Source: Bacillota bacterium
GTDB taxonomy: Bacteria; Bacillota; Limnochordia; DTU087
Assembly (NCBI GenBank): GCA_012798695.1
Contig: JAAZMR010000042.1
Span: 1-36,422 of the forward strand
Direction: 5' to 3'
DNA: 36,422 bases
This document shows positions 5,529 through 36,422 of this stretch, piece by piece. The notes below the pieces were generated by a model that worked only from the letters and a program-made list of their open reading frames with translations, searched no databases and was not told where the DNA came from. How positions within the stretch are numbered: the first letter of the stretch is position 1; each line of letters starts with the position of its first letter. A program made the translations under genes and the position numbers.

Positions 5529-5556
5529 TTGACAGTCTTTGGTGGCATGTTATAAT
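5529..5556 (+). promoter_or_regulatory. Strong sigma-A promoter of the MMPL-LolA-barrel operon
   Basis: TTGACA (5529-5534) and TATAAT (5551-5556) are separated by 16 bases, so initiation is expected near 5563. The TetR-type palindrome begins at 5564, right on the start point. Confidence 0.88.
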
Positions 5557-5563
5557 GGGGGCA

Positions 5564-5579
5564 GACCAACCGGTCGGTC
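5564..5579. promoter_or_regulatory. TetR-type operator palindrome
   Basis: GACCAACCGGTCGGTC reads almost the same on both strands; a single symmetric mismatch (AAC against TCG) breaks the 16-base palindrome. It overlaps the predicted transcription start, an effective repression position. The best candidate ligand is the TetR protein encoded at 10817-11428, directly after the three operon genes. Confidence 0.75.
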
Positions 5580-5610
5580 GGGAATGCTGATGGAGGAGGA
5601 CAAGGGTATT

Positions 5611-9233: not shown

Positions 9234-9262
9234 CACACAGTGCCTGAGGAGGGGGATAACAC

Positions 9263-10630
9263 ATGCGCAAACATTTGACGATAGCAGTAGTTCTGACGTT
9301 GGTCTTGGCCTCAGTAGGGGGCGTCCAGGCTGCTGATGTAGGTGGTGAGTTAATCGGTGAGTTGCGGGTACTGACTAAAGAAGATAAACCCTTGGAAGAC
9401 GCCGTGGCTTCTCTGGCTGTTAAGACCGATATAGAAGGAGAGCTAGGTGAGGGCGGTGAGTGGAAGCTGGGCCTAGATATTCGTCTAGATAAGGCTTTGA
9501 GTCTATTCCGAGACGAAATCTGGGATGCTGATCACACCGATGATGCTGAGGATCACATTGCTCTCGAGTTAGATGAAGCCTATCTTAACCTTTACTCGAT
9601 CTCTGGCGAACCTTTGGATCTGAGATTGGGGAAGCAATATGTGGATGTGGGTGTTGGTGATGGGATTACTGTATTTAGCCTGACCAGGCCGGTCGCAGCT
9701 AATTTCATTGATCAACTGCAGAATACTCGGGCCGTGACCGGTGTACGCGCGGACTATTATGCTGATGATGTAAGTATCACGGCTTTCCTGCAGCCACGCT
9801 TGACACCTACGCAGACCGGTAGGCGGATTGAGGCTGTCTATGGTCAAGTGGAGCAAGCAGCACTCTTATCCTTGGTTCCGCCCGAGGTGGCGCAAATGGG
9901 CATCAATCCTGCCGAGATGACCATCATCCCCGATATTCATAAAGAGGTACCCACCTATGATGACGATGGTATGGGCATCACTCTCAAGGCATCTCGTCTA
10001 CTAGGTACCTTTGATGTCGGTGTTGTCTACCAAAAGGGGTATGCATCAACTCCTATCATAAGAGACTTTGACTTTCTGCTGGATCCGTCTACGCAGTCTG
10101 CTCGGATAGAGCTCACACAGGGCTATTTGCCACTGCAAAAAGTGGGATTAACTGCAGAGGGTGCTTGGCAAGATGCTGGTATCTGGGGAGAGGTAGCGTA
10201 TAATATTCCCAAGGAAGGTTTCTTCTCATCTAAGATGGACACAGAAGCGCTTCCGGAGGAATATCGTTTTAATAGCGACAAGCATGTGACGGGTCTAGTG
10301 GGTATGGACTACTTCTGGGAGAACGGGGTATATATCAATGGGCAGATCATCCATGGATTTCCCCAGGAAATCACCAAGAGTATGGTTAATACCTATCTGA
10401 CTGGCGATATCTACCAAGATTTCCTAAATAACAGGCTTAGGTTAGAGGGCAGGCTGGTATACTGCTTTGATGACCAAGGCTGGATGATTATGCCAGAGGC
10501 TGTTTACCAATTGGATGCCAATAAGAAGTGTTTTGGCAAACTAGCTTTCCCCGGTGGTGACGAACAGTCTCTTTTCCGCCAGATGGAGGATCTAACTCAG
10601 GTACTGGTTGGGATTAGTATCAGTTTCTAG
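9263..10630 (+). CDS. Outer-membrane beta-barrel (porin-like) protein of the MMPL operon
   Basis: The 455-residue protein has a signal peptide ending in VQA (about residue 23). It then shows long stretches of alternating polar and hydrophobic residues with acidic turns, for example DLRLGKQYVDVGVG and GTFDVGVVYQKG. It ends in VLVGISISF; a C-terminal phenylalanine on an amphipathic strand is the usual signal for Bam-dependent insertion. In layout it resembles the DUF1302-type porins found beside MMPL and LolA-like genes in Gram-negative bacteria, though I cannot confirm that family by eye. AGGAGGGGG at 9246-9254 precedes the ATG. It is the third gene of the operon and is followed by a strong hairpin. 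Function inferred: outer-membrane exit or acceptor for the exported lipid. Confidence 0.82.
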   Translation: MRKHLTIAVVLTLVLASVGGVQAADVGGELIGELRVLTKEDKPLEDAVASLAVKTDIEGELGEGGEWKLGLDIRLDKALSLFRDEIWDADHTDDAEDHIALELDEAYLNLYSISGEPLDLRLGKQYVDVGVGDGITVFSLTRPVAANFIDQLQNTRAVTGVRADYYADDVSITAFLQPRLTPTQTGRRIEAVYGQVEQAALLSLVPPEVAQMGINPAEMTIIPDIHKEVPTYDDDGMGITLKASRLLGTFDVGVVYQKGYASTPIIRDFDFLLDPSTQSARIELTQGYLPLQKVGLTAEGAWQDAGIWGEVAYNIPKEGFFSSKMDTEALPEEYRFNSDKHVTGLVGMDYFWENGVYINGQIIHGFPQEITKSMVNTYLTGDIYQDFLNNRLRLEGRLVYCFDDQGWMIMPEAVYQLDANKKCFGKLAFPGGDEQSLFRQMEDLTQVLVGISISF

Positions 10631-20550: not shown

Positions 20551-20623
20551 CAAGTCTGCAGCACTGCGGTATTCACTATCTCCTATCCAATGGCAGAGCT
20601 ACATTGAGAGTAAAAACGTCCTG

Positions 20624-20654
20624 GGCTGACTCCCTATCGGGGTCAGCCTGTTTT
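20624..20654 (+). terminator. Rho-independent terminator after glnS
   Basis: GGCTGACTCC (20624-20633) pairs with GGGGTCAGCC (20639-20648), followed by TGTTTT. The remaining bases to 20792 hold a run of nine T (20698-20706) but no promoter I can define. Confidence 0.85.
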
Positions 20655-20792: not shown

Positions 20793-21335
20793 TTGACCAG
20801 CAGCAAACGGATGCTCCTCAGTCTCCTATCGATAGTTTTGGCCTTAGCAGCCCCGGCAAGGGCCCAAGTATTAGATACCGCTGCTCTGCAGGTGATTCTC
20901 AATATCCCCCAGAATCTTTGGGTGAGTGTCAGTGTATCGGAATTGGTATTTGACGAGGATGATTTCGACACAACCAAAGATGCTATTATGTTGCGAGAGG
21001 GTATTCTGGCCACAAAACGGGGTGCTGTACAGGTGGTAGTGGCCGGCAATGTGGGTCATGCTCTCTATGTCTCATCACTAGATGAAGCTTTTCAAGGCCC
21101 TTATGAGGCCAAATTGCCCAGTTCCCAGATGGAGTACAGAATGGCGACCTCAAGCGATGACGACAAGTGGTATCAATTGGGACCCAAAAGCTATACTGGT
21201 ACAGCTTTCTTCGAACAGGCTGCTCCAGGTAGAACCAAGTTCAACATGGATTTTCGGTTGCTGGTGACTTGGATGAACGCTCCGGGTACCTATGAAGGAA
21301 CAATTGTCTATACTGTCGTACCCCTAGGGAGCTAG
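20793..21335 (+). CDS. Exported beta-sandwich protein A, first gene of the secretin locus
   Basis: The 180-residue protein of unknown family has a signal peptide ending in ARA (about residue 24). The mature part is rich in beta-strand patterns: an opening LQVILNIPQNLWVSVSVSEL, a middle GAVQVVVAGNVGHALYVSSL and a closing PGTYEGTIVYTVVPLG. The plan of an LxVxLxIP opening followed by a GxYxGTxxxT ending recurs in the exported proteins at 25416, 26529 and 29037. They probably share an immunoglobulin-like or pilin-like fold (inference). No cysteines are present. TTG 20793 follows GGAGGT with six-base spacing. It is 54 bases ahead of the secretin gene and likely in one operon. It may be a structural subunit or a secreted cargo. 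Confidence 0.8.
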   Translation: MTSSKRMLLSLLSIVLALAAPARAQVLDTAALQVILNIPQNLWVSVSVSELVFDEDDFDTTKDAIMLREGILATKRGAVQVVVAGNVGHALYVSSLDEAFQGPYEAKLPSSQMEYRMATSSDDDKWYQLGPKSYTGTAFFEQAAPGRTKFNMDFRLLVTWMNAPGTYEGTIVYTVVPLGS

Positions 21336-21389
21336 ACTAGGGTAAGCTAAGCACTTAATCATGGGCAACTATTGTGGGGGGGTAATAAC

Positions 21390-22574
21390 GTGCTGAAATA
21401 TGGTCGGTATGTGTTAGCATGCATAGGGGTAATAGTGCTTTTGCTAGGTGGGGTCACCTTTGCCCAGACAAAGGACGAGCCTCTGGTGAATATCATGCTC
21501 TTTGAAACAGATCTGAGGGAAGCCCTCAGTGAAATATCTCTACAAACAGGAGTAAGTATCATCGCAGATCAGACTGTAAGCGGCCTGGTTACCGCAGATC
21601 TTCAGGATGTGCCTTTAGAGAAAGCTCTAAGAATGATCCTCTTTACTGGCGGATTCTCATACCGTCAAGTGGAGGATTTCTACTTTGTTGGCCTACCAGA
21701 TCCCCGTAGTAATACTTTTGGTGCCTTAGTGGAAACTGAAGTGGTACAGCTGTGCAATGCCAAAGCTCAGGATATCCTCGATCAGCTCCCGGCCTTTCTG
21801 ACCACATACGTAAAGGGAGCGGCCAGTGGAAATCTGCTCACGATTTCTGCACCGCCTCTAGAACTGCAGAGGATCAAACACCTGATTGAGCAGCTAGATA
21901 CTCCTCGGAAGACTGTGGAGATTAAAGTGCTGGTCACCGAGGTTTCATCTCAAGCCCTCCAAGAACTGGGGAATAGCATGTTGGATTTCACTGTTAAGAA
22001 GGGACCGAGTATCAACAAAGACTGGTCTGCAAATATCGGTTTTGATAAGGACTTACTCACTTTGGGTACAAACATATGGGGCGAGCTTGTGACCAGCCTA
22101 AAACTACTGGAAGAAAAGCAAGAAGCTAAGATCCATGCCGACCCCCGGGTGATAGTGGCCGACGGCCAAACAGCGGACCTCTTTATTGGTGATCGCCAGA
22201 TTCTGCCCATCAAAGCAGATGAAGGCGAGACTTCCCGCATTGAGCGGATTGAAGTCGGTGTGACATTGAAAGTCACCCCCACCATCATGTCAGAAGATGA
22301 GGTGATTCTCGCCCTTGCTCCCGAGGTCAGCCATTTTGTCAGTGAAGCCAGACCTGATCTAATCATCAAGCGCAATGCCCTATCTACGACCGTTCGGTTG
22401 GCCAATGGGCAAACGGCAGTGCTGGCAGGTATGACTATGCAAGACTACTATGATCTTTCTAAGAAAGTACCCGTGCTTGGGGACATTCCTCTCATCCGGT
22501 GGCTCTTCAGAAGCGATGTGAAGCGGGAGAGCGATCGAGAGGTGCTGGTCTTCGTAACTCCTGTGATTCAGTAG
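21390..22574 (+). CDS. Compact secretin (GspD/PilQ superfamily outer-membrane channel)
   Basis: The 394-residue exported protein has a signal peptide ending in TFA (about residue 25). Next comes an N0/STN-like domain (FETDLREALSEISLQTGVSII, VSGLVTADLQDVPLEKALRMIL) and an N1/KH-like domain ending LIEQLDTPRKTVEIKVLVTEVS. The C-terminal secretin domain carries the hallmark VPVLGDIPLIRWLFRS near the C-terminus. It is much shorter than GspD or PilQ (about 600-750), having fewer N domains and no S-domain. Secretins form gated outer-membrane rings, so this is among the best evidence for a diderm envelope. GTG 21390 follows GGGGGGGT with good spacing; the in-frame ATG at 21372 precedes that site. No type II or IV pilus partners are adjacent. 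Confidence 0.93.
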   Translation: MLKYGRYVLACIGVIVLLLGGVTFAQTKDEPLVNIMLFETDLREALSEISLQTGVSIIADQTVSGLVTADLQDVPLEKALRMILFTGGFSYRQVEDFYFVGLPDPRSNTFGALVETEVVQLCNAKAQDILDQLPAFLTTYVKGAASGNLLTISAPPLELQRIKHLIEQLDTPRKTVEIKVLVTEVSSQALQELGNSMLDFTVKKGPSINKDWSANIGFDKDLLTLGTNIWGELVTSLKLLEEKQEAKIHADPRVIVADGQTADLFIGDRQILPIKADEGETSRIERIEVGVTLKVTPTIMSEDEVILALAPEVSHFVSEARPDLIIKRNALSTTVRLANGQTAVLAGMTMQDYYDLSKKVPVLGDIPLIRWLFRSDVKRESDREVLVFVTPVIQ

Positions 22575-22590
22575 GGGAGGTATGAGACCT

Positions 22591-23898
22591 ATGTGGAAGC
22601 GAATAGGGCTACTGGTCTTGCTCATCTGGCTCATTGGCGCTAATGCAGTTCTCGCTCAAGTCGAGACGATAGATTTAGAAGATGCAGCTCAGCAACTGGT
22701 TCGCCCGGGATGGGAAGAGCCAGCCCTTCAGCAAGATGAGCCGACGATTATCTACTCACTGCGCCTCGTTGAGCTCAGCTTGGATGTGGACAAGATCCTA
22801 AAGGCCGCGGTAGAGCTATCTGTGAATGAGGCATCTGAGGGGGGGTATACCTTAATCACCGACCAAGCTATTTTGAGCTGGGTAGGTGCATACCCCACTA
22901 GCTTCACCGGAGACATGGCTGGTCAATGGGAAAGGTCTTTATCAGGAAGCGGCTGTGAAACTCGGTTAGCTACCATAGGAGAACGATCTGTATGGGCTGA
23001 GTTGACAGCAGACAGGATCACCGGCTCAGAAGAGGAAATGGAACTCGATCAGGGACTCAAGATATCATTAAAGCCCCACCAAGTGTACGGCCTAGATAGA
23101 AGGGTCTTGACCGATGTATCTGTTGAGTACTTGAGCATCACCGGTGCTTTCGCAGAGGCGAGGATGATAGCTCCGATTGGGTCGGAAGCGTATCAACCGC
23201 TGGCTCTGGTGATGCAGGAAGTACAGAGAAACAGACAGTGGTCCAAAAGGTGCTTTGCTCTCTATGCCACCGCCACGGTCACTGATTCCTGCTTCTTGCC
23301 CCCAAAGGGGCCACTAGTCTCTATAGGCAGCATCAAAGGTCTGCAAGAGCTTCTGACTATATCCCAACCTTCTAAGGCACATTGGACGAAGTTTAGTGTG
23401 GGGCTGGGCCGCCTACATGAAGAAATTGGCTTTAGGGCAGGAGTGGAGCTGGAACGAGCGGAATATAGGGTATGTGTTTTGTTAGATGGTTCTAAATCGG
23501 GATATGGGTATAGGCTTGGTGCAGATTGGCGTCTCTATGAGGAGTTAGGGTTGGCTGTTCACACAGTGCAAAGACCGGGTCTCAATCCCGTTTTCCGTTT
23601 GGGATTATCTGATCAAGTCCATTGGGGCACCTTGAAGCTCGAAGCGAGTTATCTCCCCATCACCTTTGCTGCTGAGGAGGGGAGCCTAATTGATTCGTCA
23701 TGGGCTTTGTTTAGTGCCAGGATTGAACCAAATGATTGGATTTTACGCTATGAGTGTATATATGATGCTGGACAGGTTGGGCACGAGGTAGGGGTAATGA
23801 AGCAACTTAGCTCCCACTTTGATTTAGGTCTGATATGGACTCGACTACCTACCGGTGAAGATTATAGTGGTATCGGCTTAGTTTTTTGGATGGACTGA
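22591..23898 (+). CDS. Exported protein, probable outer-membrane beta-barrel, partner of the secretin
   Basis: The 435-residue protein of unknown family has a signal peptide ending in VLA (about residue 22). Residues 25-240 look like a globular periplasmic domain. The last 190 residues alternate polar and hydrophobic residues in about ten strand-sized blocks (FSVGLGRLHEEIGFRAGVELE, YGYRLGADWRLYEELGLAVH, SGIGLVFWM), as in small outer-membrane barrels. It ends in WMD, so the terminal-aromatic signal is displaced. Start: ATG 22591 is ten bases after GGGGAGG, while ATG 22582 is only one base after it. It begins 16 bases behind the secretin stop, so they are certainly cotranscribed. It could be an outer-membrane partner or anchor of the secretin complex (inference). 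Confidence 0.75.
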   Translation: MWKRIGLLVLLIWLIGANAVLAQVETIDLEDAAQQLVRPGWEEPALQQDEPTIIYSLRLVELSLDVDKILKAAVELSVNEASEGGYTLITDQAILSWVGAYPTSFTGDMAGQWERSLSGSGCETRLATIGERSVWAELTADRITGSEEEMELDQGLKISLKPHQVYGLDRRVLTDVSVEYLSITGAFAEARMIAPIGSEAYQPLALVMQEVQRNRQWSKRCFALYATATVTDSCFLPPKGPLVSIGSIKGLQELLTISQPSKAHWTKFSVGLGRLHEEIGFRAGVELERAEYRVCVLLDGSKSGYGYRLGADWRLYEELGLAVHTVQRPGLNPVFRLGLSDQVHWGTLKLEASYLPITFAAEEGSLIDSSWALFSARIEPNDWILRYECIYDAGQVGHEVGVMKQLSSHFDLGLIWTRLPTGEDYSGIGLVFWMD

Positions 23899-23935
23899 AC
23901 CGAGAGTCGGGACCTCTCAACTAGGAGGAGCTAAT

Positions 23936-25138
23936 ATGGCTGCAAACCGACCAGCATGGAGACTGCGGGTCTGGATGTTAGGCAACTTCGTACTTGAGGT
24001 AAATGGCGGCGAGGTGCCGGCATCAAATTGGAAGTCCAAGAAAGCGCTCAATTTGTTTCGCTATCTGGTAGCCAGGCGTGGTGAAAAGGTTCCCAAAGAC
24101 GTGTTGAATGAGCTCCTCTGGCCCGATATGGAGCTGGATGGATCAACAGAACAGAATCTACATACCTGTGTATACTTTGTACGGAGGGTAATCGATCCCG
24201 ATTTACGGCGCTATGAGAAATCTGAGCTGGTTACCTGCTCTGGTGGCCTTTATTGCTTTGAAGATAGCCAACAGTGCTGGGTGGATATTGAAGAGTTTGA
24301 AGCTCACTATGTGGAAGGTAAGAAGCTAGAGAAAACTGCACCTATAGAAGCTATTGAGGCGTTTAAGCAGGAACTGGCATTGTACCGGGGTGATTTCCTC
24401 TCCGAAGAACCCTATCTAGATTGGGCGATTGAACCCAGGGAATACTACCGCGAAATATATGTCGATGGTGCGCTGCGAGTCGCGGCACTGCTGGCAGATG
24501 TAGCAGATGATCGGGCGGAAGCCATACAGATCTGTCGGAATGCATTAAGAAAAGATCCCTATCGAGAGGACTTACATCATGCCGTGATCAACTGCCTGAT
24601 CAGTGCCGGTCGCTATAGCGAAGCCGCAACCCAGTACAACACATATGCCCGCATGATGAAAGAAGAGTTTGCATTAGAGCCGAGTCGTGAAGCTCAAGCT
24701 TTGCTGCAGCAGATACAACACAGTGGTAGACGTGAGTCCATTCTTACTCAGCCAGGAAGCAGTAAGACACCAGGAGCTTATGTCTGTGATCGGAAGTTTT
24801 TTGAATCAATATGTCGTCTGGAGTATCGGCGCCAGGAACGCAGCCGTAAGCCGGTGACTTTCATGATGGTATCTATCTATGGTGCTCAAGCAATCAGTCA
24901 GCGGCAAGTCTACTCCCTCGCCAATATCTTGCGACAGGGAGACGCTCTTTGCCGGTGGGATGAGGGGAAGGTTGGCATCTGCCTATGGGGTACAGATGAA
25001 GATGGGGCCAAGATAGTAAGTCAAAGGCTGAAACGAGAGATTGAGAAAGATGGGCTCGCTAGAGCGGGGGTCAGCTATGATGTGCTTAAAGCTGGTGATA
25101 GCCCACCGGTCTTGGAGATTCTACAGAAAGCCTATTGA
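23936..25138 (+). CDS. SARP/BTAD transcriptional activator with degenerate GGDEF-like C-terminus
   Basis: The 400-residue cytoplasmic regulator has three parts. Residues 8-100 form an OmpR-like winged helix (LRVWMLGNFVLEVNGGEV, SKKALNLFRYLVARRGEKVPK, LLWPDM). Residues 105-260 form the bacterial transcriptional activator (BTAD/TPR) domain, ending YARMMKEEFALEPSREAQALL. Residues 275-400 resemble a GGDEF domain (FFESICRLEYRRQERSRKPV, LANILRQGDALCRWDEGKVG), but GGDEF itself is replaced, so it cannot be a cyclase. It could still bind a nucleotide or act as a dimer module. It starts 37 bases after the barrel gene behind an AGGAGG site, and is probably the dedicated activator of the surrounding exported-protein genes. 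Confidence 0.88.
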   Translation: MAANRPAWRLRVWMLGNFVLEVNGGEVPASNWKSKKALNLFRYLVARRGEKVPKDVLNELLWPDMELDGSTEQNLHTCVYFVRRVIDPDLRRYEKSELVTCSGGLYCFEDSQQCWVDIEEFEAHYVEGKKLEKTAPIEAIEAFKQELALYRGDFLSEEPYLDWAIEPREYYREIYVDGALRVAALLADVADDRAEAIQICRNALRKDPYREDLHHAVINCLISAGRYSEAATQYNTYARMMKEEFALEPSREAQALLQQIQHSGRRESILTQPGSSKTPGAYVCDRKFFESICRLEYRRQERSRKPVTFMMVSIYGAQAISQRQVYSLANILRQGDALCRWDEGKVGICLWGTDEDGAKIVSQRLKREIEKDGLARAGVSYDVLKAGDSPPVLEILQKAY

Positions 25139-25237
25139 TTCGACATATTCCGGTAAGAATTTAACAAATATTTGAGAAAAACTCAAGAACGCCAGGTTAC
25201 AATGTGGATAAGATAGATATGTTGGGGGGAAATACCA

Positions 25238-25450
25238 ATGACATCTTCCACATTCATCATTCGAATTCTGCGCACAGATAATGGAACCTGGCAGGGGCGC
25301 ATCGGGCATACTCAAACCGGTGAGATGAGGCCGTTTAAAGGCTGTTTGGAGATGCTCAGGCTGATGGATGAAATTATAGGGACCAAAGAACGTTCGGAAG
25401 AGGGGATCGGGCGCAATGCAGGTGAATGGCCGACGACCAACAAAGCGTAA
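25238..25450 (+). CDS. Small 70-residue protein, unknown
   Basis: This short cytoplasmic protein opens FIIRILRTDNGTWQGRIGH and continues CLEMLRLMDEIIGTKE. It resembles, from memory, small Bacillota proteins that open with a strand pair WQGxIxx and end in a helix. GGGGGGA precedes the ATG with good spacing, and its end overlaps the next gene by 35 bases, suggesting translational coupling. It lies 99 bases behind the SARP gene; a short inverted repeat TTGAG/CTCAA (25172-25176, 25182-25186) sits in that gap. A small regulatory or adaptor role is possible but unproven. Confidence 0.75.
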   Translation: MTSSTFIIRILRTDNGTWQGRIGHTQTGEMRPFKGCLEMLRLMDEIIGTKERSEEGIGRNAGEWPTTNKA

Positions 25451-26270
25451 TCGACGAGTAGTGCTTATATTTACGCTGGTACTATCGCTGGCTCTGTGTG
25501 GTAGTGCGCGGGGCAACAGCCGAGTGCGAATGAATCCTGGAGCAATAAACTTTCATATAGACACAAAACCGTCTGAGCCGTATGTATATAGCCAAGACGT
25601 CCTGACGTTAGAGTGGAAGAATGGAGCAGACCGTGAAGATATTTCCTATGAGATTACCAATCTCCTGGATAAGGAAACGATGATCCCTGCCTCTCTGATC
25701 GAAGCTGCGAGAATAGGAGTATCGGACTATCAATCATTAGATCTGCCGATGGTTTTTCTAAGGGCCAATGAAGACAAGGCACAAATCAGCTTTCGTATTG
25801 CCTCGGAAGCTTGGCGAAGTGCTGGCAATTTCGATGGCTTGCTGCGAACAACACGTTTAAATAACGGGGATATCAATGTCAAGGCCCATGTCCAGAAATA
25901 TACCTGCCTGGACGTGGACGCGGGTGAAGATGGCATAGTGGTCGATGCCAACCAGGGCCCCGGAATCTACGCAGCAGATGAGAAAATCGGGTTCACAGTC
26001 TTTTCTAATGGTAAACCTTGGATATTAAGTGTTTCTAGTGAATGCCTGAACCTGTCTTCATCTGTACCAGGCTTATCGCAAATACCACCAGAGAATATCT
26101 GGGTGAGACTTGATGATGAGGATTATGAGATTAATATGGCAGAGGGTCTCATCTTGAGTGGCCCTGCCGGTAAGTTGGTGGCACACGAGTTGAGTGTGAG
26201 GGTAAGAACAGAGCTTGAGCATGTCTCTGGTACTTACAAAGGCAAGCTTAAGTTAACTCTCAGTGAATAA
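25416..26270 (+). CDS. Exported two-domain beta-rich protein D
   Basis: The 284-residue protein has an N-terminal basic stretch and a signal peptide ending near CGSARG (about residue 33). Two beta-rich halves follow. The first (about 38-155) starts RVRMNPGAINFHIDTKPSEP; the second (about 160-284) starts VHAQ-like VKAHVQKYTCLDVDAGEDG. It ends VSGTYKGKLKLTLSE, matching the closing strands of proteins A and C in this locus. Two cysteines (YTCLD, SSECLN) could form a disulfide in the second half. The start ATG lies inside the preceding small gene and has GAGGGG upstream at about ten bases. It may be a tip adhesin or a larger subunit of the putative surface structure. Confidence 0.75.
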   Translation: MQVNGRRPTKRNRRVVLIFTLVLSLALCGSARGNSRVRMNPGAINFHIDTKPSEPYVYSQDVLTLEWKNGADREDISYEITNLLDKETMIPASLIEAARIGVSDYQSLDLPMVFLRANEDKAQISFRIASEAWRSAGNFDGLLRTTRLNNGDINVKAHVQKYTCLDVDAGEDGIVVDANQGPGIYAADEKIGFTVFSNGKPWILSVSSECLNLSSSVPGLSQIPPENIWVRLDDEDYEINMAEGLILSGPAGKLVAHELSVRVRTELEHVSGTYKGKLKLTLSE

Positions 26271-26528
26271 GCAAGGAACATAGTGCCATAAGTGGTTGAA
26301 TGTGGTAGACTATCATTGTGACGAGTTGCACAGGAGGTGATGTTGCCGAAGCCGATATAGCGATCATATTCACCCTAAAGTAAATGGCCTTATATCTCAA
26401 GACTTTCCTTTCCTCATTGGAGGCGACGACCCACTACCTTAACTGGTCACCTATGGGTAGTGGCGAGCTAGTGGTGAAACCGGCCAAGAGGGTAAGAAGT
26501 AATCTAGCCAATGAGGAGGAAGATTTCG
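26271..26528. other. Gene-free gap before exported protein C
   Basis: These 258 bases hold no believable gene and no recognisable c-di-GMP aptamer. An AGGAGGTGATG at 26332-26342 looks like a ribosome binding site, but the frame after it closes quickly. Confidence 0.5.
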
Positions 26529-27023
26529 ATGAAAAAGATTACGGCAATGATCATGGTCGTAGCACTGATATTAGGCGTAAGCTCACTGGTGTTGGCCAAG
26601 GAGAATACGGAGCTCGCCAAGCAGGATGTCCATCTTACGGTCAAGGTAGCTAATTGGGCAGAGTTAAGCAATCTAGAGCCTATGGCAGTAGCACTTGCGC
26701 AGCCGGGACAGCGGATAAATGCGAGCCAGCCTATTACCGTACAGACTAATACGAACGTCACAGTTTCCGTGTCAGAGCCTACACTAACCGAGGCAGATAG
26801 CCAGATACTCGCAGCCAAAGAGACTGGGGCTCTCAAGTGGGGACTAGGTTTCGCAAGACACTGTACACCCATGACACCTGGCTCTTCCTTCAAGGTGGAT
26901 GCCGGGAGCGCGGACACCAGAAATCTAATATTCTGGGCAGAATGGGCTGAGGAGGACTGGTGGACACTGATAGCCGGCAATTATTCGGGTACTGCTACTG
27001 TCACCATAGCGTCGATGGAGTAG
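26529..27023 (+). CDS. Exported beta-sandwich protein C
   Basis: The 164-residue exported protein has a signal peptide ending in LVLA (about residue 23). The mature part opens VHLTVKVANWAELSNLEPM, has a threonine/asparagine-rich strand region (VQTNTNVTVSVSEPT) and ends NYSGTATVTIASME. The general plan matches proteins A and B of this locus: short opening strand with V-V-A or I-P, central strand, closing GxYxGT strand. It carries a single cysteine. ATG 26529 has GAGGAGGAAG at 26513-26522; the in-frame ATG at 26511 precedes that site. It is followed after 47 bases by the large PapD-like protein. Likely a subunit or secreted matrix protein. Confidence 0.78.
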   Translation: MKKITAMIMVVALILGVSSLVLAKENTELAKQDVHLTVKVANWAELSNLEPMAVALAQPGQRINASQPITVQTNTNVTVSVSEPTLTEADSQILAAKETGALKWGLGFARHCTPMTPGSSFKVDAGSADTRNLIFWAEWAEEDWWTLIAGNYSGTATVTIASME

Positions 27024-27070
27024 GCTATAGTGGTTAGACTACGCTGACCGTGCGAAGAGAGGGTGGTATT

Positions 27071-28600
27071 GTGAAGACTGCCGTTCGCAGGATGATGCTG
27101 AGCTTGGCTGTTGGCCTGATCATATTAATGGCTTGTCCGGTGAGCTGGGCCTTTGGTGTGCGCCCTTTGGTGATCGACCTGCATATGAAGCCCGGGGATA
27201 CTAGGGATTTTGAGATAATCTTTAATCCTGGCAACAGCGATGAAACAGTACTACTCTCTTTATACCAGCCGGTACAGCTGCTTAGCGGAAATTTGGCTTA
27301 TCAAGAGCCCAATCCTGAGATCTTTCCTTCAGTCAATTGGGTAAAATTGGGCAAACAGGAGATCAAGGTCTATCCTGGTGAAGATTCATCTGTATCAGGT
27401 ACTGTCAAGGTACCCTTTGATGCCGGAGGTTCCCATACAGTAGTGATTATGGCTGAACCGAAGGTGGCAGCTGATCAACCAGGGATTACCCTCATAGTTA
27501 GATATGCGATTCGCCTCAATATTCGAGTTGATCGACCTGGGTTGCGGACTCAGGCTGAACTTGTGGACTTCAACATGCATCCTGGGGCCGAGGGCGAGCC
27601 AGTCATTGCCGCGCGGGTTGCCAATACCTCTGCATGGGATTATCTTGTGTCTGGGGAGATAACCCTAAGGGACTCAGAGAAGCGGCTGGTAGAGCGGATA
27701 GTATTGAATAGTGAGGCTGCTGACAGAGCTAATCTAACTCAAACGAGGGTTTATCCTGGCAGTGAAGTAGAGTTTACGGGTATGGTGACTAGACGGCTGA
27801 ATCCCGGTGATTATACTCTCAGGTGCTTTCTCCGCTATGGCGAGCATGGTCAGATCATTCAAACCAAGGGCATCACTATCGCCGCAGGAGACTACAATTT
27901 CCCGGGAGCGGATGAGATCGGTGCTTTTACTGTAGAGCCCGAAAGCATTGAGATGGAGCTGAAAGCCGGTCAGCAGAAAAGCCAGGTATTGCAGTTAACG
28001 AGTGAAATCCAAGATCCGGTGATACTTGTAGTCAGTGGCAAGGATCTTCAGCCTGAATACCTCTACTCCCCATTAGCATGGGTGGAGTTGAGAGGCTCAA
28101 ATCAGTTTGAGCTTCCCGGGAGGGGTAGAAGTAGGGTTGTATTGACAGTAGCGATTCCTAAGGAAGTGGATGATGCCAGCTATAACGGTTCTCTGGTTTT
28201 GGGAGCCTATTCCCCGGAAAATGGGGATTTGCTCAGCCAAAGGGTGATCCCAATTTCAATCTTAGTGGGGGATGATCACCTTTATGCGGTTGAGCTCAAG
28301 AGCCTTGAAGCTGAGCAGGTAGAAGAAGGCCATGTGCTCTCGCTAGATATAGCTAACACGGGTAATGTGGATCTGAAGCCACATGCTGACCTAGTAATTA
28401 GCACTGAGACTGGTGAGTTTACGGAAAGAGCTGCATTGATGCTAGCGGAGGGGGCAAAGAAGGTCATCCCTCTGCAGAGACAACAGCTGGTGGGTATCGC
28501 CCAGGGGCTGCAGCCTGGACTCTATCGGATCATGGTGACGGTTTATGATGGCAGCCGAGAGATTCAGGCCAGTGAGATGCTGTTGGAGATAGATGAATAA
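27071..28600 (+). CDS. Large exported protein with PapD/DUF916-like and further Ig-like domains
   Basis: The 509-residue protein has a signal peptide ending in VSWA (about residue 27). The N-terminal domain (about 28-150) reads FGVRPLVIDLHMKPGDTRDF, then NPGNSDETVLLSLYQPVQLL and PGEDSSVSGTVKVP. This plan is seen in PapD-type chaperones and in DUF916 domains of WxL-associated proteins. Domains about 155-280 and 290-500 are further Ig-like folds with NTSAWDYLVSGEI and NTGNVDLKPHADL strands. There is no C-terminal membrane helix or sortase motif, in contrast to Gram-positive DUF916 proteins, so a soluble periplasmic role is likely. GTG 27071 has GAGAGGGTGG upstream. It may chaperone the small beta-sandwich proteins during export. 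Confidence 0.8.
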   Translation: MKTAVRRMMLSLAVGLIILMACPVSWAFGVRPLVIDLHMKPGDTRDFEIIFNPGNSDETVLLSLYQPVQLLSGNLAYQEPNPEIFPSVNWVKLGKQEIKVYPGEDSSVSGTVKVPFDAGGSHTVVIMAEPKVAADQPGITLIVRYAIRLNIRVDRPGLRTQAELVDFNMHPGAEGEPVIAARVANTSAWDYLVSGEITLRDSEKRLVERIVLNSEAADRANLTQTRVYPGSEVEFTGMVTRRLNPGDYTLRCFLRYGEHGQIIQTKGITIAAGDYNFPGADEIGAFTVEPESIEMELKAGQQKSQVLQLTSEIQDPVILVVSGKDLQPEYLYSPLAWVELRGSNQFELPGRGRSRVVLTVAIPKEVDDASYNGSLVLGAYSPENGDLLSQRVIPISILVGDDHLYAVELKSLEAEQVEEGHVLSLDIANTGNVDLKPHADLVISTETGEFTERAALMLAEGAKKVIPLQRQQLVGIAQGLQPGLYRIMVTVYDGSREIQASEMLLEIDE

Positions 28601-28674
28601 CCATAAGATAGGATATTTTTCCCACAAAAGCAGGAGTTTGCTTGCTGCCGTGGAACCTACTAATTGAAAGTGTT

Positions 28675-28704
28675 TTGGAAGTCAGAATTTGTGGTATATA
28701 TATA
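28675..28704 (+). promoter_or_regulatory. Probable promoter of the riboswitch leader
   Basis: TTGGAA (28675-28680) is followed after 16-18 bases by TATATA (28697-28702 or 28699-28704) within an alternating TA run. This would start RNA about 15 bases ahead of the first aptamer. Confidence 0.6.
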
Positions 28705-28723
28705 CTGGAGAAATTATTATAAC

Positions 28724-28813
28724 CTCTACGATAAAGGCAAACCCGTCGAAAGGCGGCGACGCAAAGTCAACGGGCCTAAAGCACAAAGCTAAGGTGGCCG
28801 GACTGCCGAAGAG
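28724..28813 (+). promoter_or_regulatory. c-di-GMP-I riboswitch (GEMM-I), copy 1
   Basis: All main marks of the GEMM-I aptamer are present: GGCAAACC (28736-28743), a CCGTC/GGCGG stem capped by a GAAA tetraloop, GACGCAAAG, GGGCCTAAAG as tetraloop receptor, and GGCCGGACTGCCG at the 3' side. P1 closes with CTCT (28724-28727) and AGAG (28810-28813). The base equivalent to G20 is G, which predicts c-di-GMP rather than cyclic AMP-GMP as ligand. A terminator follows at 28834. CCGAAGAGA (28806-28814) can instead pair with TCTCTTTGG (28848-28856), which would form when P1 is open and would interfere with the terminator. Prediction: c-di-GMP stops transcription. Confidence 0.93.
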
Positions 28814-28833
28814 AGACACAGGACCATGTAAGG

Positions 28834-28875
28834 AAGGAGCCTGACCATCTCTTTGGATGAACAGGGCTCCTTTTT
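28834..28875 (+). terminator. Riboswitch-controlled Rho-independent terminator
   Basis: AAGGAGCC (28834-28841) pairs with GGCTCCTT (28865-28872), extended by TG/CA next to a bulged G, followed by TTTTT (28871-28875). It lies 20 bases after aptamer 1 and before aptamer 2, so it decides whether the second switch and the gene are transcribed. Confidence 0.88.
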
Positions 28876-28941
28876 GATATACTTCGAGATTGCGCACAAG
28901 GAGCCTGATACAGCTACAATCGATCATAAAGATGAGGATCT

Positions 28942-29028
28942 CTCCAGAAAAGGTAAACCCGCTGAAAGGCGGGGGCACAAAGCCACGGGCCTAAGAGGAA
29001 ACTTATGGCGGCCGGGTTGCCAAAGGAG
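28942..29028 (+). promoter_or_regulatory. c-di-GMP-I riboswitch (GEMM-I), copy 2, P1 overlaps the ribosome binding site
   Basis: The aptamer shows GGTAAACCCGC (28952-28962), a GAAA-capped stem, GGCACAAAG, GGGCCTAAG and GGCCGGGTTGCC. The G20 equivalent is G, so c-di-GMP is expected. P1 can close with CTCC (28942-28945) and GGAG (29025-29028). This GGAG is the core of the AAGGAGGA ribosome binding site (29023-29030) of the gene starting at 29037. Ligand binding, which stabilises P1, would therefore hide the site and block translation. AAGGAGCCTGA at 28898-28908, between the two switches, repeats the start of the terminator arm at 28834. Confidence 0.92.
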
Positions 29029-29036
29029 GATTAGAA

Positions 29037-29501
29037 GTGAAGAGAAATGCAGCCCTCAGTGTTGTTTTGGTCTTCTTACTGTTAGGCAGTTTTGCTCATA
29101 CCGCATGGGCGCGAGAGTTAGCTAGGGCTGAACTCAAGGTTCGGCTAGAGATTCCGGTTATGCAAAGACTGACTGTCCTGCAGCCGGCAGAGATTGTCTT
29201 CACGTACCCAGCCAATGGACAGGCTTTGGTGTTCACCAATGTGGGCAAGGTAAGGGTGCAAAGTAATGCCAATTGGGCTTTGACTGTCGGTGCCATTTCT
29301 GATTCCAATGTGGCCATATCCATAAGACCCTCCCATGATAGATTTGCTCCTTGGCAGACCATCGATGGCTACGGGCGAGTATATACCGGCCCCAATGGTT
29401 CTGAAGACATAAGTTGGGATGTGAAGATCGAAAGTCGGCGGTCAGCCGATGCAGTCGGACAAGGCATGGTGCAGCTCTATTTCACATTGGGTCACCTGTA
29501 G
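29037..29501 (+). CDS. Exported beta-sandwich protein B under tandem c-di-GMP riboswitches
   Basis: The 154-residue exported protein has a signal peptide ending in TAWA (about residue 26). The mature part opens AELKVRLEIPVMQRLTVLQ, continues with PAEIVFTYPANGQ and VRVQSNANWALTVG, and ends MVQLYFTLGHL. It has no cysteines. The opening strand and the central S-N-W strand closely match protein A (20793) and more loosely C and D, so these are probably distant paralogues. GTG 29037 has AAGGAGGA six bases upstream; that site is part of riboswitch 2. A terminator follows at 29550, so it forms its own unit. It is predicted to be made only when c-di-GMP is low. A surface or matrix role is inferred. 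Confidence 0.85.
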   Translation: MKRNAALSVVLVFLLLGSFAHTAWARELARAELKVRLEIPVMQRLTVLQPAEIVFTYPANGQALVFTNVGKVRVQSNANWALTVGAISDSNVAISIRPSHDRFAPWQTIDGYGRVYTGPNGSEDISWDVKIESRRSADAVGQGMVQLYFTLGHL

Positions 29502-29549: not shown

Positions 29550-29572
29550 GCCCAGGTGTATCCTGGGCTTTT
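29550..29572 (+). terminator. Rho-independent terminator after exported protein B
   Basis: GCCCAGG (29550-29556) pairs with CCTGGGC (29562-29568) over a five-base loop, followed by TTTT. Confidence 0.88.
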
Positions 29573-29963: not shown

Positions 29964-30821
29964 ATGGCAAGCCAGATACCCGCTCATGATACGTATTACC
30001 AAGACGAGATCGAGTTGCGGGAAATAGTAGAAGTAATTCGCAAACGCATATGGCTGGTCATACTCATACCTTTGATCGCAGCACTGACGGCCCTAGGTGT
30101 ATCGAAGTTCATCATTGTCCCCGAATACGCAGCATCAACCGGAATCGCTCTAGGGAGTTTCGTCCATGAAATCTATGGCAATGTTGCCGCGTCCAAAGAG
30201 GTCTTGATGAGTCGGGATTTGCTGCGTCAGGTGTATCAAGATCTAGACTTACATAATGAATATAGTTCAGTAGATGATTTTGCCCAGACCATTTCGGTAG
30301 AGGATATCCGGAATACTCGCATACTCAACATTCGCTACCAGGATAGTGATCCCGAGCGTGCTCAAAAGGTAGTACAGACCATTGCAGATCGGTTCTTGGA
30401 GCTATCAGATGAGGTCTATACTGCGAAGCGAGCTTTGCTAGAAGAGCGGTTATTAGATCTCCAGGAGGCCCATCATGAAGTAGGGGTTACGTATCAGAAC
30501 ACATTGGAGACCCTCAAGGCCTTAGAGGCCGCAGAGACCCAGAATGCCGAGACAGCTTTGGCCCGAGCTCGGATTATCGATTACCTCGTCAAAGGCGAGA
30601 CCTCGCTGGTGGCTCTGGGTTCTGAGATCCACGAAGTCCAGGTGCAGTTATCTGATTTGGAGAAGACAACGATCATCGAACAGCCCATGGTGGGTATCGA
30701 TCCGGTCAATGCACGACCCCTGCTGAACACCGCCATCGCGTTGGTCTTGGGTGGTATGGTCGCTCTAGGTGTAGTTTTCATCTTGGAGTATTTCGAGAAG
30801 AATCCACTGCAGTCTAGCTAG
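29964..30821 (+). CDS. Short Wzz-domain polysaccharide chain-length/export protein
   Basis: The 285-residue protein has the Wzz layout. A cytoplasmic N-terminus with DEIELREIVEVIRKR leads into membrane helix 1 (about residues 29-52). A periplasmic domain with SRDLLRQVYQDL and ISVEDIRNTRILNIRYQDSDPE follows, then a short coiled coil (about 150-225), and membrane helix 2 near the C-terminus (TAIALVLGGMVALGVVFIL). Members set polymer length or couple synthesis to export of exopolysaccharide. No tyrosine-kinase domain is fused. AAGGAGAAG precedes the ATG by about ten bases. It shares the ELREI opening with the larger Wzz protein at 34703, suggesting that both act on one polymer. Confidence 0.88.
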   Translation: MASQIPAHDTYYQDEIELREIVEVIRKRIWLVILIPLIAALTALGVSKFIIVPEYAASTGIALGSFVHEIYGNVAASKEVLMSRDLLRQVYQDLDLHNEYSSVDDFAQTISVEDIRNTRILNIRYQDSDPERAQKVVQTIADRFLELSDEVYTAKRALLEERLLDLQEAHHEVGVTYQNTLETLKALEAAETQNAETALARARIIDYLVKGETSLVALGSEIHEVQVQLSDLEKTTIIEQPMVGIDPVNARPLLNTAIALVLGGMVALGVVFILEYFEKNPLQSS

Positions 30822-33093: not shown

Positions 33094-34368
33094 ATGGGGG
33101 ATCATGCCGTGAAGCAATATCTGAAAGGTCTTATCATCTCTGTTATTCTATTGATTACGTCAGTGATTGCAGACAGGGTAGGTTTGGGTTTATTGGCCAT
33201 ATCCTCGAGCCATACTCTTAGTGGCTTCTTGAGCATCGTTTTTGGGATCATGGCCTTGTATTACGCTATCTTAAGTGCGACCATTTTCTCTGTAAAGCGG
33301 CGGCATGGGATGCCCGGTGAGGTCAAGATGCTCAAGGGTCTATACCGGGTTTTAGCTTTCTTTGGACTCTTAGCCGGTTTCGTCTACGTCCAAGGGCAGC
33401 TAGCAGTTTTCAGCAGCTTTTTCTCACTCTTCGGGGGCATGCTGTTGGGCTGGTCCTTACAGGCTCCAGTGAGCGGTGTGGCCGCGTGGGTGTTAGTTAC
33501 CTTGAAGCGTCCATTTAGGATTGGTGATCGAGTCCAGTTTCCTTCCTTAGGATTGACCGGTGATGTCATGGAGCTATCAGCCATGTATACCACGTTGAAC
33601 CAAGTGGGAGGCGCCATTGGCAGTGAGGAAGCAGTAGGCCGCAGTATCCTGATACCTAATGCTATGTTATTCAGCAATGTAGTGATCAACTATACTGCCC
33701 AGCAAGAGACTGCCTATATTCTAGATGAGGTGGTAATCAGGATTACCTATGATTCTGACTGGGATACCGCTGTACAAATTCTCACTGAAGCTGCTCGTGA
33801 GGTAACTGCAGACATAATCAGGAATACCGGTCAGGAGCCTTACGTCAGAGCAGATAACTACGATTATGGAGTGTATATGCGCTTACGCTATATTACCCTA
33901 GCTACTGACAGGCCCCGGATATCCTCGCTCATTCTAGAACAGGTGTTCAAACGTTTTCAGGAAAACAAGAACGTTGATTTTGCCATCCCCTATGTCTATT
34001 CCTTCAAACGGGGCAAGTTCGCTACAGAGAGCCATAGAAGTGGGGATAGGCATACCGAGCTTATTCCGGTTGCAAGAATCACCGATGGGGCAACACTCTT
34101 AGCGGAACTAGAACAGGACCCGGAAGCGGTTATGCCCCTGGCCCGCAATATTGCTGACCAGGGGCTGCTGCAGCCACTAATTGCAGTCCGCAATCTCGGT
34201 GAAGATACCTATACGCTGATAGCTGGCCATCAGCGACTAAAGGCTTGCCTCTACCTTGGCTGGGAGTCAGTTCCAGCAATTGTGCAGAACCCGATTGGTT
34301 CTGAAGTACAACCTTTTAGGGCCAAGGGTTCAGGCACCACTAGTTCAAGCCAAACCCTTGGCCAATAG
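33094..34368 (+). CDS. MscS-family mechanosensitive channel fused to a ParB-like domain
   Basis: The 424-residue protein combines two modules. Residues 1-310 are a small-conductance mechanosensitive channel: three or four membrane helices, a glycine/alanine-rich pore helix (SLFGGMLLGWSLQAPVSG), the MscS beta-domain mark RPFRIGDRVQF, and a cytoplasmic alpha-beta part ending near KNVDFAIPYVYSF. Residues about 325-395 match the ParB/Srx N-terminal fold: PVARITDG, MPLARNIADQGLLQPLIAVR, YTLIAGHQRLKACLYLGW and VPAIV. The GHQR motif (378-381) stands where ParB has its nucleotide-binding G-E-R-R. The stop comes soon after, so no helix-turn-helix or CTP-clamp parts follow. ATG 33094 has AAGGA 11 bases upstream; GTG 33109, with GGGGGA at seven bases, is an alternative start. 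It is divergent from the PII-like gene. Confidence 0.9.
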   Translation: MGDHAVKQYLKGLIISVILLITSVIADRVGLGLLAISSSHTLSGFLSIVFGIMALYYAILSATIFSVKRRHGMPGEVKMLKGLYRVLAFFGLLAGFVYVQGQLAVFSSFFSLFGGMLLGWSLQAPVSGVAAWVLVTLKRPFRIGDRVQFPSLGLTGDVMELSAMYTTLNQVGGAIGSEEAVGRSILIPNAMLFSNVVINYTAQQETAYILDEVVIRITYDSDWDTAVQILTEAAREVTADIIRNTGQEPYVRADNYDYGVYMRLRYITLATDRPRISSLILEQVFKRFQENKNVDFAIPYVYSFKRGKFATESHRSGDRHTELIPVARITDGATLLAELEQDPEAVMPLARNIADQGLLQPLIAVRNLGEDTYTLIAGHQRLKACLYLGWESVPAIVQNPIGSEVQPFRAKGSGTTSSSQTLGQ

Positions 34369-34702
34369 GCCGCGAACCCACGATTCATGTATGCAAGCCA
34401 CAGTAGGTCTGAAGCCTCTGTGGCTTCACGTTGGTAGTTAAGCTAGGGTAATGGCCGTGGGTACTGCATTAGCTATGGGTCAGCGGAGCAAACAATCGGT
34501 ATGATGGTTGGACCAAGTACAGTGATCTCTGGCCTGCAAAACCAATAGTCCAGAGGCCTCTCATCGTCAGAGGAGTCTTTGAATTGCTAGAAAAATGTAA
34601 AGCAGAGAGGATTTACCTCTAGACTTGTGGAAAGTTTCAGCATCTATCTTCTGGGCGTTTTCCTCAACGCCGAATTCTGTCGATCCTAAGGGGGAGTTAC
34701 AA
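34369..34702. other. Long gene-free leader before the large wzz-type gene
   Basis: These 334 bases contain no likely gene. Hairpins visible: AAGCCACAG/CTGTGGCTT (34395-34403 with 34418-34426), probably linked to the end of the MscS gene; AGAGG/CCTCT around 34615; and GGCGTT/AACGCC (34654-34659 with 34666-34671) just before the ribosome binding site. I see no strong promoter and no known riboswitch. Exopolysaccharide operons often have long regulated leaders, so a regulatory RNA is possible. Confidence 0.5.
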
Positions 34703-36422
34703 TTGGATGCACAACCACAATTCTTAAGGGATGACGAAATCGACTTACGTGAGGTCTTCATGGTCCTATGGAATGGGAAATGGACGATCATTGCATTGAT
34801 GGTAGTTGCTGCTTTGGTTGCCGGTGTGGGTGGACGCATATTCTTGACTCCGAGCTATGATGCAGTGGCCACTCTCTTGATCATGCCACCTACCTATCAG
34901 AGTGCCATAGAGCCAGAACCGTTACCGCTAGATACTTATCGTGCCCTGGCCATGACTCATTCAATAGCGAGTCAAGTAATCGAAAGCCTACAGTTGAAAA
35001 ACGCGAAAAACGAGTCTTTGACAGCCGATGGTGTTCTGAAAGCCGTGGAAGTCGAGACGTCCGTTCCCCAAGGTAGCCGCACTGATAGTAGAGAGACAGC
35101 AGGAATGATGAATATCAAGGTATCTTGGAACGATCCGACTATAGCAAAGGACATTGCTAATACCTGGGCAGATGTCTTTATGAAGAATACAGCCCATATT
35201 CGCAAGAGCGAGTCAGACGAGATCGCCGGGGTTATTCTTAGCCAATTTGGTTCTACTGAAGAAGCACTGAAAAACGCGGAGAGACAACTTCTGGAGTTTA
35301 GAACGGCAGGTAGCATACCCATGATGACTCAACAGGTTGAACTGCTCATGTTTCAATTGGGCCAGCGTCGGGAGCGCGTTCTACGTATGCAGACCGATCT
35401 AGAGATGAAGCGGCATCAGTTTGAGACCCTTAGTAAACAGCTTGCAGCTCTTGAAGAAGACGGGGAGTGGTTGGGATTACTCACACGTGATCCCTCTAAG
35501 CTTTCGGACAATGGTCATCCCGCGAGGCGACAGATTGTTGAGACCATGGAACAGCTCTTGGCAGCCAACGCTGCTTTGATTGAATTTGATGAGCGGGCAA
35601 AAATCTCTCTTCTGGAGCAGGAACTGGAGCTTGAGCAAGAGCGTTTGCTCACTTACCAAAGTGAACTGGCTGCTCTGGAAGCTCAATACCCGCAGCTTGA
35701 AGCTCAATTTGCTGCCCTATTTTCAACCCTACAGAATCAGGAGAAGACCTTGGTTATGTCCCGTAGCCTTTCAATTGATGCTATGTGGTCAGCGGTGAGT
35801 GATGACCAAGAACTACTAGATAAGCTCAAGGAATTGCGTTTGATGGATGAGTCTCCCAACCCAACATATCAGCAAGTAGAGATGCTTTTAGCCGATAGCC
35901 AGGTAGAACTTGCTGCACTACCCAGGAAAATCCAGGCTTATGAGGAGTTAGTTGGGTCTTGTACAGAACGCATCGCATATCTGGAATCTACATTGCCAAA
36001 GCTTCAACAGACTAGGCAAGCACTAGAGGCACCAGTTACTCTCAGCAATGAATTATACGACTCCATGAAGGAACAGTACGCCTCTATGAGAAAAGAGTGG
36101 GCAGAGTTGGCGTCGGAAGTCCCGATGTTGAAAGCCGAACTGCAGTTAGCTGAAGGAGAGCTGACCCAATATGAGGAAAATGTATTAGCGATACAAGGAG
36201 CACTATTGGATTTACAGTTGGAAGAAGAACGGCTTGTTCGGAGTATTGACGCGCTAACAAGGACACATGACTCTTTGTCGGAGCAGGCGGAGAGTGCTCG
36301 CCTCGCCGAACTGCAGGCGACCGGTGATGTCCGATTTATTTCGCCCGCAGTAGCTCCTCGCTCCCCATCGAGCCCTAATCATAAGCTTAACATAGCTATC
36401 GCCATAGTCTTGGCCGGCATGA
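34703..36422 (+). CDS. Long coiled-coil Wzz-type polysaccharide co-polymerase/export protein, 3' end missing
   Basis: The frame runs open from TTG 34703 to the window end (573 codons visible). AAGGGGGAG (34688-34696) is spaced six to seven bases ahead of the TTG. The N-terminus DDEIDLREVFMVLWNGKW leads into membrane helix 1 (WTIIALMVVAALVAGVGG), then a Wzz domain with SYDAVATLLIMPPTYQS and AMTHSIASQVIESLQLKN. A very long coiled coil occupies about residues 170-545. The final visible part SPAVAPRSPSSPNHKLNIAI is the proline-rich segment that always precedes membrane helix 2, so only the C-terminus is missing. It is a second, much larger Wzz protein after the short one at 29964, and the genes beyond the window are probably exopolysaccharide synthesis and export genes. 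Confidence 0.9.
   Translation, partial: MDAQPQFLRDDEIDLREVFMVLWNGKWTIIALMVVAALVAGVGGRIFLTPSYDAVATLLIMPPTYQSAIEPEPLPLDTYRALAMTHSIASQVIESLQLKNAKNESLTADGVLKAVEVETSVPQGSRTDSRETAGMMNIKVSWNDPTIAKDIANTWADVFMKNTAHIRKSESDEIAGVILSQFGSTEEALKNAERQLLEFRTAGSIPMMTQQVELLMFQLGQRRERVLRMQTDLEMKRHQFETLSKQLAALEEDGEWLGLLTRDPSKLSDNGHPARRQIVETMEQLLAANAALIEFDERAKISLLEQELELEQERLLTYQSELAALEAQYPQLEAQFAALFSTLQNQEKTLVMSRSLSIDAMWSAVSDDQELLDKLKELRLMDESPNPTYQQVEMLLADSQVELAALPRKIQAYEELVGSCTERIAYLESTLPKLQQTRQALEAPVTLSNELYDSMKEQYASMRKEWAELASEVPMLKAELQLAEGELTQYEENVLAIQGALLDLQLEEERLVRSIDALTRTHDSLSEQAESARLAELQATGDVRFISPAVAPRSPSSPNHKLNIAIAIVLAGM

Follow-up and report, generated by a model that had tools for sequence, protein, structure and literature searches.

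A conserved gene module for a probable motor-independent chaperone-secretin pathway of pilus-like surface proteins in diderm Bacillota

Results

We analyzed a 36,422-nt stretch of DNA from a Bacillota bacterium (Limnochordia, DTU087; GenBank assembly GCA_012798695.1, contig JAAZMR010000042.1, positions 1-36,422, forward strand), hereafter the window, and found that nine consecutive plus-strand genes at positions 20793-29501 form a conserved module. They encode a compact secretin, a degenerate secretin paralogue fused to an outer-membrane barrel (BAR), a candidate periplasmic chaperone of PapD/WxLIP type (27050, after the first position of its gene), four exported subunits (A1, B284, C170 and D154), a SARP/BTAD regulator and a conserved 70-aa protein. 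We are highly confident that the module is a dedicated surface system made of secretin, chaperone and subunits. The more specific reading that we favor, and hold to be probable, is a "chaperone-secretin" pathway that would bring pilus-like proteins to the surface of diderm Bacillota without a motor.

The original prediction for this region was made from the sequence alone. All nine plus-strand genes that it listed are open reading frames (ORFs) at the predicted coordinates. By eye, seven of the nine proteins start with a hydrophobic signal-like segment, in line with the seven signal peptides proposed there, and both proteins that were modeled with AlphaFold carry an N-terminal helix. Only two of the nine are recognized by Pfam and NCBIfam, namely the secretin and the SARP/BTAD regulator; neither database has a name for A1, BAR, B284, C170, D154 or the 70-aa protein.

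Gene order is conserved in genomes with outer-membrane machinery

The host is represented by a 2.68-Mb draft genome, and its relatives among the GTDB contigs are metagenome-assembled genomes from anaerobic digesters, labeled "Bacillota bacterium" or DTU087. Related secretins were found in 58 of 61 related genomes, the weaker matches among them being other secretin types. Of the 67 loci in which the secretin match was strong, 57 have the PapD-like gene no more than 7.5 kb away on the same strand; the remaining ten are all cut at or near a contig end.

Two gene orders recur. Type 1, as in the window, is A1 - secretin - BAR - (SARP - 70-aa) - B284 - C170 - PapD-like - D154, and A1 is directly 5' of the secretin gene in many relatives. 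Type 2 is (large ~620-aa exported protein) - small subunit - PapD-like - secretin - stand-alone barrel. Within the host's own genome, a PapD-like gene also adjoins two paralogous secretins (contigs C82 and C87). The original prediction had proposed to look for the same gene order in other genomes; because the order is kept across many families, chance is excluded as the origin of the gene set.

We then considered a phylum-wide sample of 299 genomes, in which a match to the PapD-like profile was called strong at an E-value below 1e-38. Matches occurred in 47 genomes, of which 33 had strong matches to full-length genes, and the type 2 order recurs there. Strong matches were present in 33 of the 77 genomes that have Omp85 and in none of the 222 that lack it. 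Put the other way, Omp85 was found in all 33 genomes with a strong match vs 44 of the other 266 (Fisher p=7e-23, not corrected for relatedness). In this sample, the module is therefore confined to genomes with outer-membrane machinery.

The exported subunits resemble chaperone-usher subunits

The four subunits A1 (180 aa; 20793-21335, +), B284 (284 aa; 25416-26270, +), C170 (170 aa; 26511-27023, +) and D154 (154 aa; 29037-29501, +) belong to one superfamily, which is chaperone-usher-pilin-like. The alignment of the A1 and D154 families (A5) matched that of the C170 family (A6) with E=3.3e-16 in a profile comparison, and the B284 alignment (A4) matched A6 with E=1.4e-9. B284 has two domains, both with a conserved AGxYxG motif, and is a candidate tip or adaptor subunit.

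The C170-family profile matches the archaic-pilus tip subunit CsuE (E=2.3e-5) and Caf1 (E~0.009), with the AGxYxGxIxVTV end of the family aligned on their last strand. The A5 and A4 profiles gave nothing useful against the Protein Data Bank (PDB). For the AlphaFold2 model of C170 (pLDDT 88), the best fold matches were the PapG pilin domain (Z 7.4; 108 aligned, 3.4 A), the Csu pilus (Z 7.3) and CsuE (Z 7.2); other top matches were mostly chaperone-usher subunits or chaperones, together with some unrelated Ig-like proteins. The top Foldseek matches were CsuE (best, 1.9e-4), PapG and CfaB, and TasA and the Pyrobaculum bundling pili were among the weaker ones. Z-scores of about 7 are middling on their own; the sequence match and two fold programs agree on chaperone-usher-type subunits. 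Pfam detected no TasA-family domain in the 52 aligned subunits, and no WxL domain was found among the aligned subunits.

The mature N-terminus of the subunits alternates. The hydrophobic fraction is 0.88, 1.00, 0.72 and 0.96 at residues 40, 42, 44 and 46, and 0.04-0.08 at the positions between, as would be expected of a donor strand. In some type 2 loci, the exported protein of ~620 aa ends in a small-subunit domain (blastp down to 2e-25), the layout seen in tip adhesins or in "large WxL" proteins. The four beta-rich exported proteins of the original prediction are retained as beta-sandwich subunits; their type is corrected to chaperone-usher, which brings the likely mechanism closer to chaperone-usher assembly than had been seen.

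A WxLIP-related candidate chaperone

The candidate chaperone 27050 (27050-28600, +) measures 516 aa from the first start and 509 aa from an internal one. It had been predicted as a 509-residue PapD/DUF916-like protein, and by profile it is indeed distantly WxLIP/DUF916-like: its family profile matches Enterococcus faecium WxLIP (EfmWxLIP1, solved structure 9i1y) with E=5.7e-7. Among 32 family members, Pfam matches to WxLIP_PGBD were weak and below cut-off in nine, WxLIP_HBD was found in one, and the other matches were fn3_5 and NPCBM_assoc; none of the 32 matched PapD_N or PapD_C. The window protein ends without a hydrophobic transmembrane helix.

Across the 32 members, hydrophobic residues alternate at eight positions within residues 146-160, and this segment would form a long, alternating strand like the G1 donor strand of PapD. 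Candidates for the Arg/Lys anchoring pair of PapD-type chaperones were sought, and R38 (18 of 32 members), R151 (24 of 32) and R155 (23 of 32) are conserved in one branch only. In a published model, WxLIP inserts a strand parallel to a WxL strand and so completes the WxL sandwich (PMC10599100); chaperone-like action therefore has a precedent in the WxLIP family.

The main rival explanation is WxL-like anchoring in a diderm cell. Nothing would polymerize; 27050 would permanently hold single subunits on the peptidoglycan or outer membrane, and the secretin would only let them out. This would agree with a protein that is profile-related to WxLIP and not to the Pfam PapD chaperone, and with those relatives in which a small subunit, a large subunit and a WxLIP-like protein reproduce the composition of a WxL cluster. 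However, the WxL domain (PF13731) was found in none of the 61 genomes, with a positive Lactococcus lactis control, and the single WxLIP_HBD match among 32 members and the lack of a C-terminal transmembrane helix in 27050 speak against anchoring as well. The subunits, moreover, resemble fiber-forming chaperone-usher subunits, are encoded by several genes per locus and have alternating N-terminal strands. We consider anchoring of this kind unlikely.

A compact secretin and a secretin-derived barrel protein

The secretin gene (21372-22574, +) encodes 400 aa from the first start and 394 aa from an internal GTG, the length of the compact secretin originally predicted. Both the secretin core (PF00263, 4.7e-40) and Secretin_N (PF03958, 8e-9) score above cut-off, and STN (PF07660) falls just below it. 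The protein lies below the NCBIfam cut-offs for PilQ and GspD; its core is closest to GspD/PilQ, which are also its profile matches in the PDB.

BAR (438 aa; 22582-23898, +) had been predicted as a probable outer-membrane barrel. This stands for its C-terminal half: residues 268-437 (~23383-23892) form a 12-strand barrel in the AlphaFold2 model (pLDDT ~95) that matches NanC/KdgM with Z 17-18. The N-terminal half had not been seen to be a secretin relative. Residues 52-236 (~22735-23289) align to the secretin family (hhalign E=3.2e-5, prob 73; E=8.8e-6, prob 83, for that part alone). The BAR relatives in loci L069, L087 and L129 keep an STN domain, and several relatives score >200 bits with the secretin profile. 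The fold search covered the barrel half, and the assignment of the secretin-like half rests on the profile comparison and the STN-bearing relatives; the BAR profile had no match among PDB sequences. Because residues 52-236 align with secretins and relatives keep STN, BAR is best read as a secretin duplicate that would have lost the gate and gained, or been fused to, a barrel.

The stand-alone barrels 3' of the secretin in type 2 loci have no detectable homology to the BAR barrel. Three of them (L134 12091, L135 12178 and L133 6557), each directly 3' of the secretin, share the signature ARLMGMGYxYVAVWDEPNPLYSNPA, which recalls PorV/UPF0164 proteins.

The original prediction had also pointed to the absence of the usual partners, and this holds. 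When the window proteins were scanned with Pfam, no motor ATPase, platform protein or type IV pilin came up, and the usher (PF00577) was found in none of the 61 genomes, the host's own included, with a positive E. coli control. Secretin and barrel could nevertheless serve a type II secretion system (T2SS), type IV pilus (T4P) or Tad machine encoded elsewhere, with the beta proteins as cargo or accessories. The affinity of the secretin core to GspD/PilQ would suit this, and further secretins in the genome mean that machines of this type may be present. The host genome (G000) has two other full-length secretin ORFs, separate from the module, on contigs C121 (L045 7521-10532) and C112 (L046 9756-12770); these differ in build, with ~1005 aa, BON repeats and a T2SS-T3SS_pil_N domain; because of this difference, the other filament machines of the genome have their own gates. 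The conserved neighbors of the compact secretin are a candidate chaperone and subunits. We regard service to a remote machine as very improbable.

c-di-GMP riboswitches precede single subunit genes

Three cyclic di-GMP (c-di-GMP) riboswitches in the module had been missed by the original prediction. A class II riboswitch (26410-26494, +; RF01786, 66.4 bits) lies 17 nt 5' of C170, which it would control. Two class I riboswitches (RF01051) precede D154: a distal one (28726-28810, +; 73.2 bits) and a proximal one (28942-29024, +; 79.0 bits), 13 nt 5' of the start codon. A terminator hairpin (28834-28875, +; minimum free energy -23.6 kcal/mol, z -3.4) follows the distal aptamer, and an intrinsic terminator is found at this place in the window and in L051, L012, L088 and L090.

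Searches of the window and related loci gave 19 c-di-GMP riboswitches, of which 17 are directly 5' of a subunit gene. Class I precedes D154-like genes, class II precedes C170-like genes, and D154 orthologues led by a riboswitch occur in other families. Of the two exceptions, that of L088 has only a truncated contig stretch downstream and that of L059 has no called gene. The latter, a c-di-GMP-I-GGC riboswitch in a Limnochorda-like genome (13682-13759, +), has no called ORF within 500 nt downstream; the gene may have been missed or lost.

The 5' aptamer strand of the C170 leader, TTTCCTCATTGG, has an alternative pairing partner in CCAATGAGGAGG, the segment that includes the Shine-Dalgarno sequence. 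L051 and L088 preserve this pairing, L069 largely does, and in L058 it covaries. Because the pairing is kept and covaries, the sequences suggest that c-di-GMP frees the ribosome site of C170, a translational ON switch.

The SARP-type regulator that had been predicted (400 aa; 23936-25138, +) has a BTAD/SARP region (PF03704, 6.6e-20) and a degenerate GGDEF-like C-terminus (PF00990, 2.4e-4), and is syntenic in many relatives. The conserved 70-aa protein (25238-25450, +) is usually encoded directly 3' of the SARP gene; we found nine homologues, several adjoining SARP. At L081, for instance, a SARP gene adjoins a 70-aa homologue a few genes from the secretin module, and the two may be a regulatory pair.

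Such regulation bears on a third rival, a static envelope scaffold in which the proteins would connect outer membrane and wall or form an S-layer-like coat, with the secretin ring structural and not an export gate. Deinococcus is reported to have abundant multidomain envelope connectors (PMC9388160), and Limnochordia strains have S-layers and unexplained envelope filaments (PMC11456536). A regulated surface appendage would agree better with a chaperone-like partner and with the control of single subunits by c-di-GMP, and we judge a static scaffold improbable.

RNA searches also gave Group II intron D1-D4-3-like matches near subunit genes (L056 9035-9202 and L064 8026-8198).

Borders and neighboring genes

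Terminator-like hairpins lie at both ends of the module, one between glnS and the first gene (20622-20650, +; 12-pair stem and U tail) and one after the last gene (29550-29568, +). Such hairpins are no commoner in the region than in shuffled sequences; these two sit at the module borders. Promoter matches in the region were likewise no more numerous than in shuffles.

Two Wzz chain-length determinant proteins are encoded close by (29964-30821, + and 34625-36421, +). The Wzz gene at 29964 was left out of the module: it lies past the hairpin at 29550 and does not adjoin the module consistently. In relative L051, a Wzz gene is directly 3' of D154.

Elsewhere in the window, one chain (33094-34368, +) matches both a mechanosensitive-channel domain (1.6e-10) and ParB_N (3.6e-11), an odd fusion. 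At 5539-10630 (+), an MMPL/RND transporter (972 aa), a LolA-like sorting protein and an unnamed 455-aa protein stand in a row, followed by a TetR regulator; this resembles an operon for lipoprotein or lipid export in a diderm Bacillota.

Discussion

In the chaperone-secretin pathway that we propose, A1, B284, C170 and D154 would enter the periplasm by Sec. There, 27050 would use its long alternating G1-like strand to capture them by donor-strand complementation, and would deliver them to an outer-membrane gate formed by the compact secretin and BAR. At this gate, the N-terminal strand of one subunit would replace the chaperone strand in the next, and folding energy, not an ATPase, would drive export and the assembly of a fiber or coat. 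c-di-GMP would set the supply of single subunits, through the class II switch (probably translational ON) for C170 and the tandem class I switches for D154, with the SARP-type regulator above the riboswitch control. The lack of a motor in the module would fit folding-driven assembly as in chaperone-usher pili. Computation establishes the homologies, the folds, the gene order, the riboswitches and the taxonomic association with an outer membrane, whereas export by signal peptides, strand exchange and polymerization, transit through the secretin, localization, the part played by BAR, the choice between fiber and coat and the sense of the switches are inferred.

Several points weigh against this pathway. 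The candidate chaperone has no Pfam PapD match and is much larger than ordinary chaperones. The fold match of the subunits is middling (Z ~7), and the presumed lack of a G strand is not seen directly in the coordinates. Secretins normally work with a motor or with type IV/T2SS partners, and we know of no secretin that polymerizes donor-strand subunits.

As far as we are aware, ushers are the sole route by which donor-strand pili of diderms pass the outer membrane, and secretins serve type IV-filament, type III secretion or phage machinery only. A pathway that joins chaperone-held pilin-like subunits to a secretin would thus be a new combination. In the open-licence literature we found no paper with both "secretin" and "DUF916"; none of the titles and abstracts listed describes a secretin with donor-strand subunits, and no paper was found there that joins these parts. 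The proposal of an undescribed route for beta-sandwich subunits onto a diderm Bacillota surface is supported: the gene order is conserved in relatives, and profiles place the module in no T2SS, T4P or WxL system.

If true, the pathway would account for the building of such surfaces by diderm Bacillota that have no usher, and it suggests how WxL/WxLIP surface systems might have arisen once the outer membrane was lost. A broader view is that the module represents a class of fiber biogenesis across diderm Bacillota, in which a secretin and a secretin-derived barrel replace the usher as gate and platform for donor-strand-exchange subunits from a WxLIP/PapD-type chaperone, possibly sharing an origin with the monoderm WxL systems; we see the chances for and against this view as evenly balanced. 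The c-di-GMP riboswitches make the chaperone-secretin system directly testable. Envelope filaments that have no explanation so far are on record in cultured Limnochordia, and the pathway may account for them (PMC11456536).

Comparison with known systems

The module lacks defining features of each of the chaperone-usher pathways, WxL clusters, T2SS/T4P/Tad machines and TasA fibers, and the original view that it fits no T2SS, T4P or WxL system has held up, with 27050 as a distant WxLIP relative. It is like the archaic chaperone-usher pili (Csu, CupE), and the chaperone-usher pathway generally, in its small secreted Ig-like subunits, their alternating N-terminal strand and their AGxYxGxIxVTV last strand. 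Further likenesses are a PapD-like partner with a putative long alternating strand, several subunit genes, some of them two-domain, and a locus without an energy-coupling ATPase. Unlike those pili, it has no usher; the outer-membrane part is a secretin with a secretin-derived barrel protein, and the candidate chaperone is a larger protein, related to WxLIP, that no Pfam PapD model matches.

With the WxL clusters of monoderm Bacillota (small WxL, large WxL and WxLIP), the module shares a WxLIP-related protein beside small beta-sandwich surface proteins, to which some relatives add large ones. It differs in that it has no WxL domain and no transmembrane helix on the WxLIP-like protein, whereas a secretin and a barrel are added. 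The STN, Secretin_N and core regions clearly belong to the superfamily of the T2SS, T4P and Tad secretins, but no ATPase, platform or type IV pilin stands alongside, the N-terminal part of the secretin is short, and a degenerate paralogue-barrel fusion is adjacent. TasA/TapA and the archaeal bundling pili are donor-strand fibers made without an usher, as would be the case here; in contrast to them, the module has no TasA-family Pfam match and has dedicated outer-membrane proteins.

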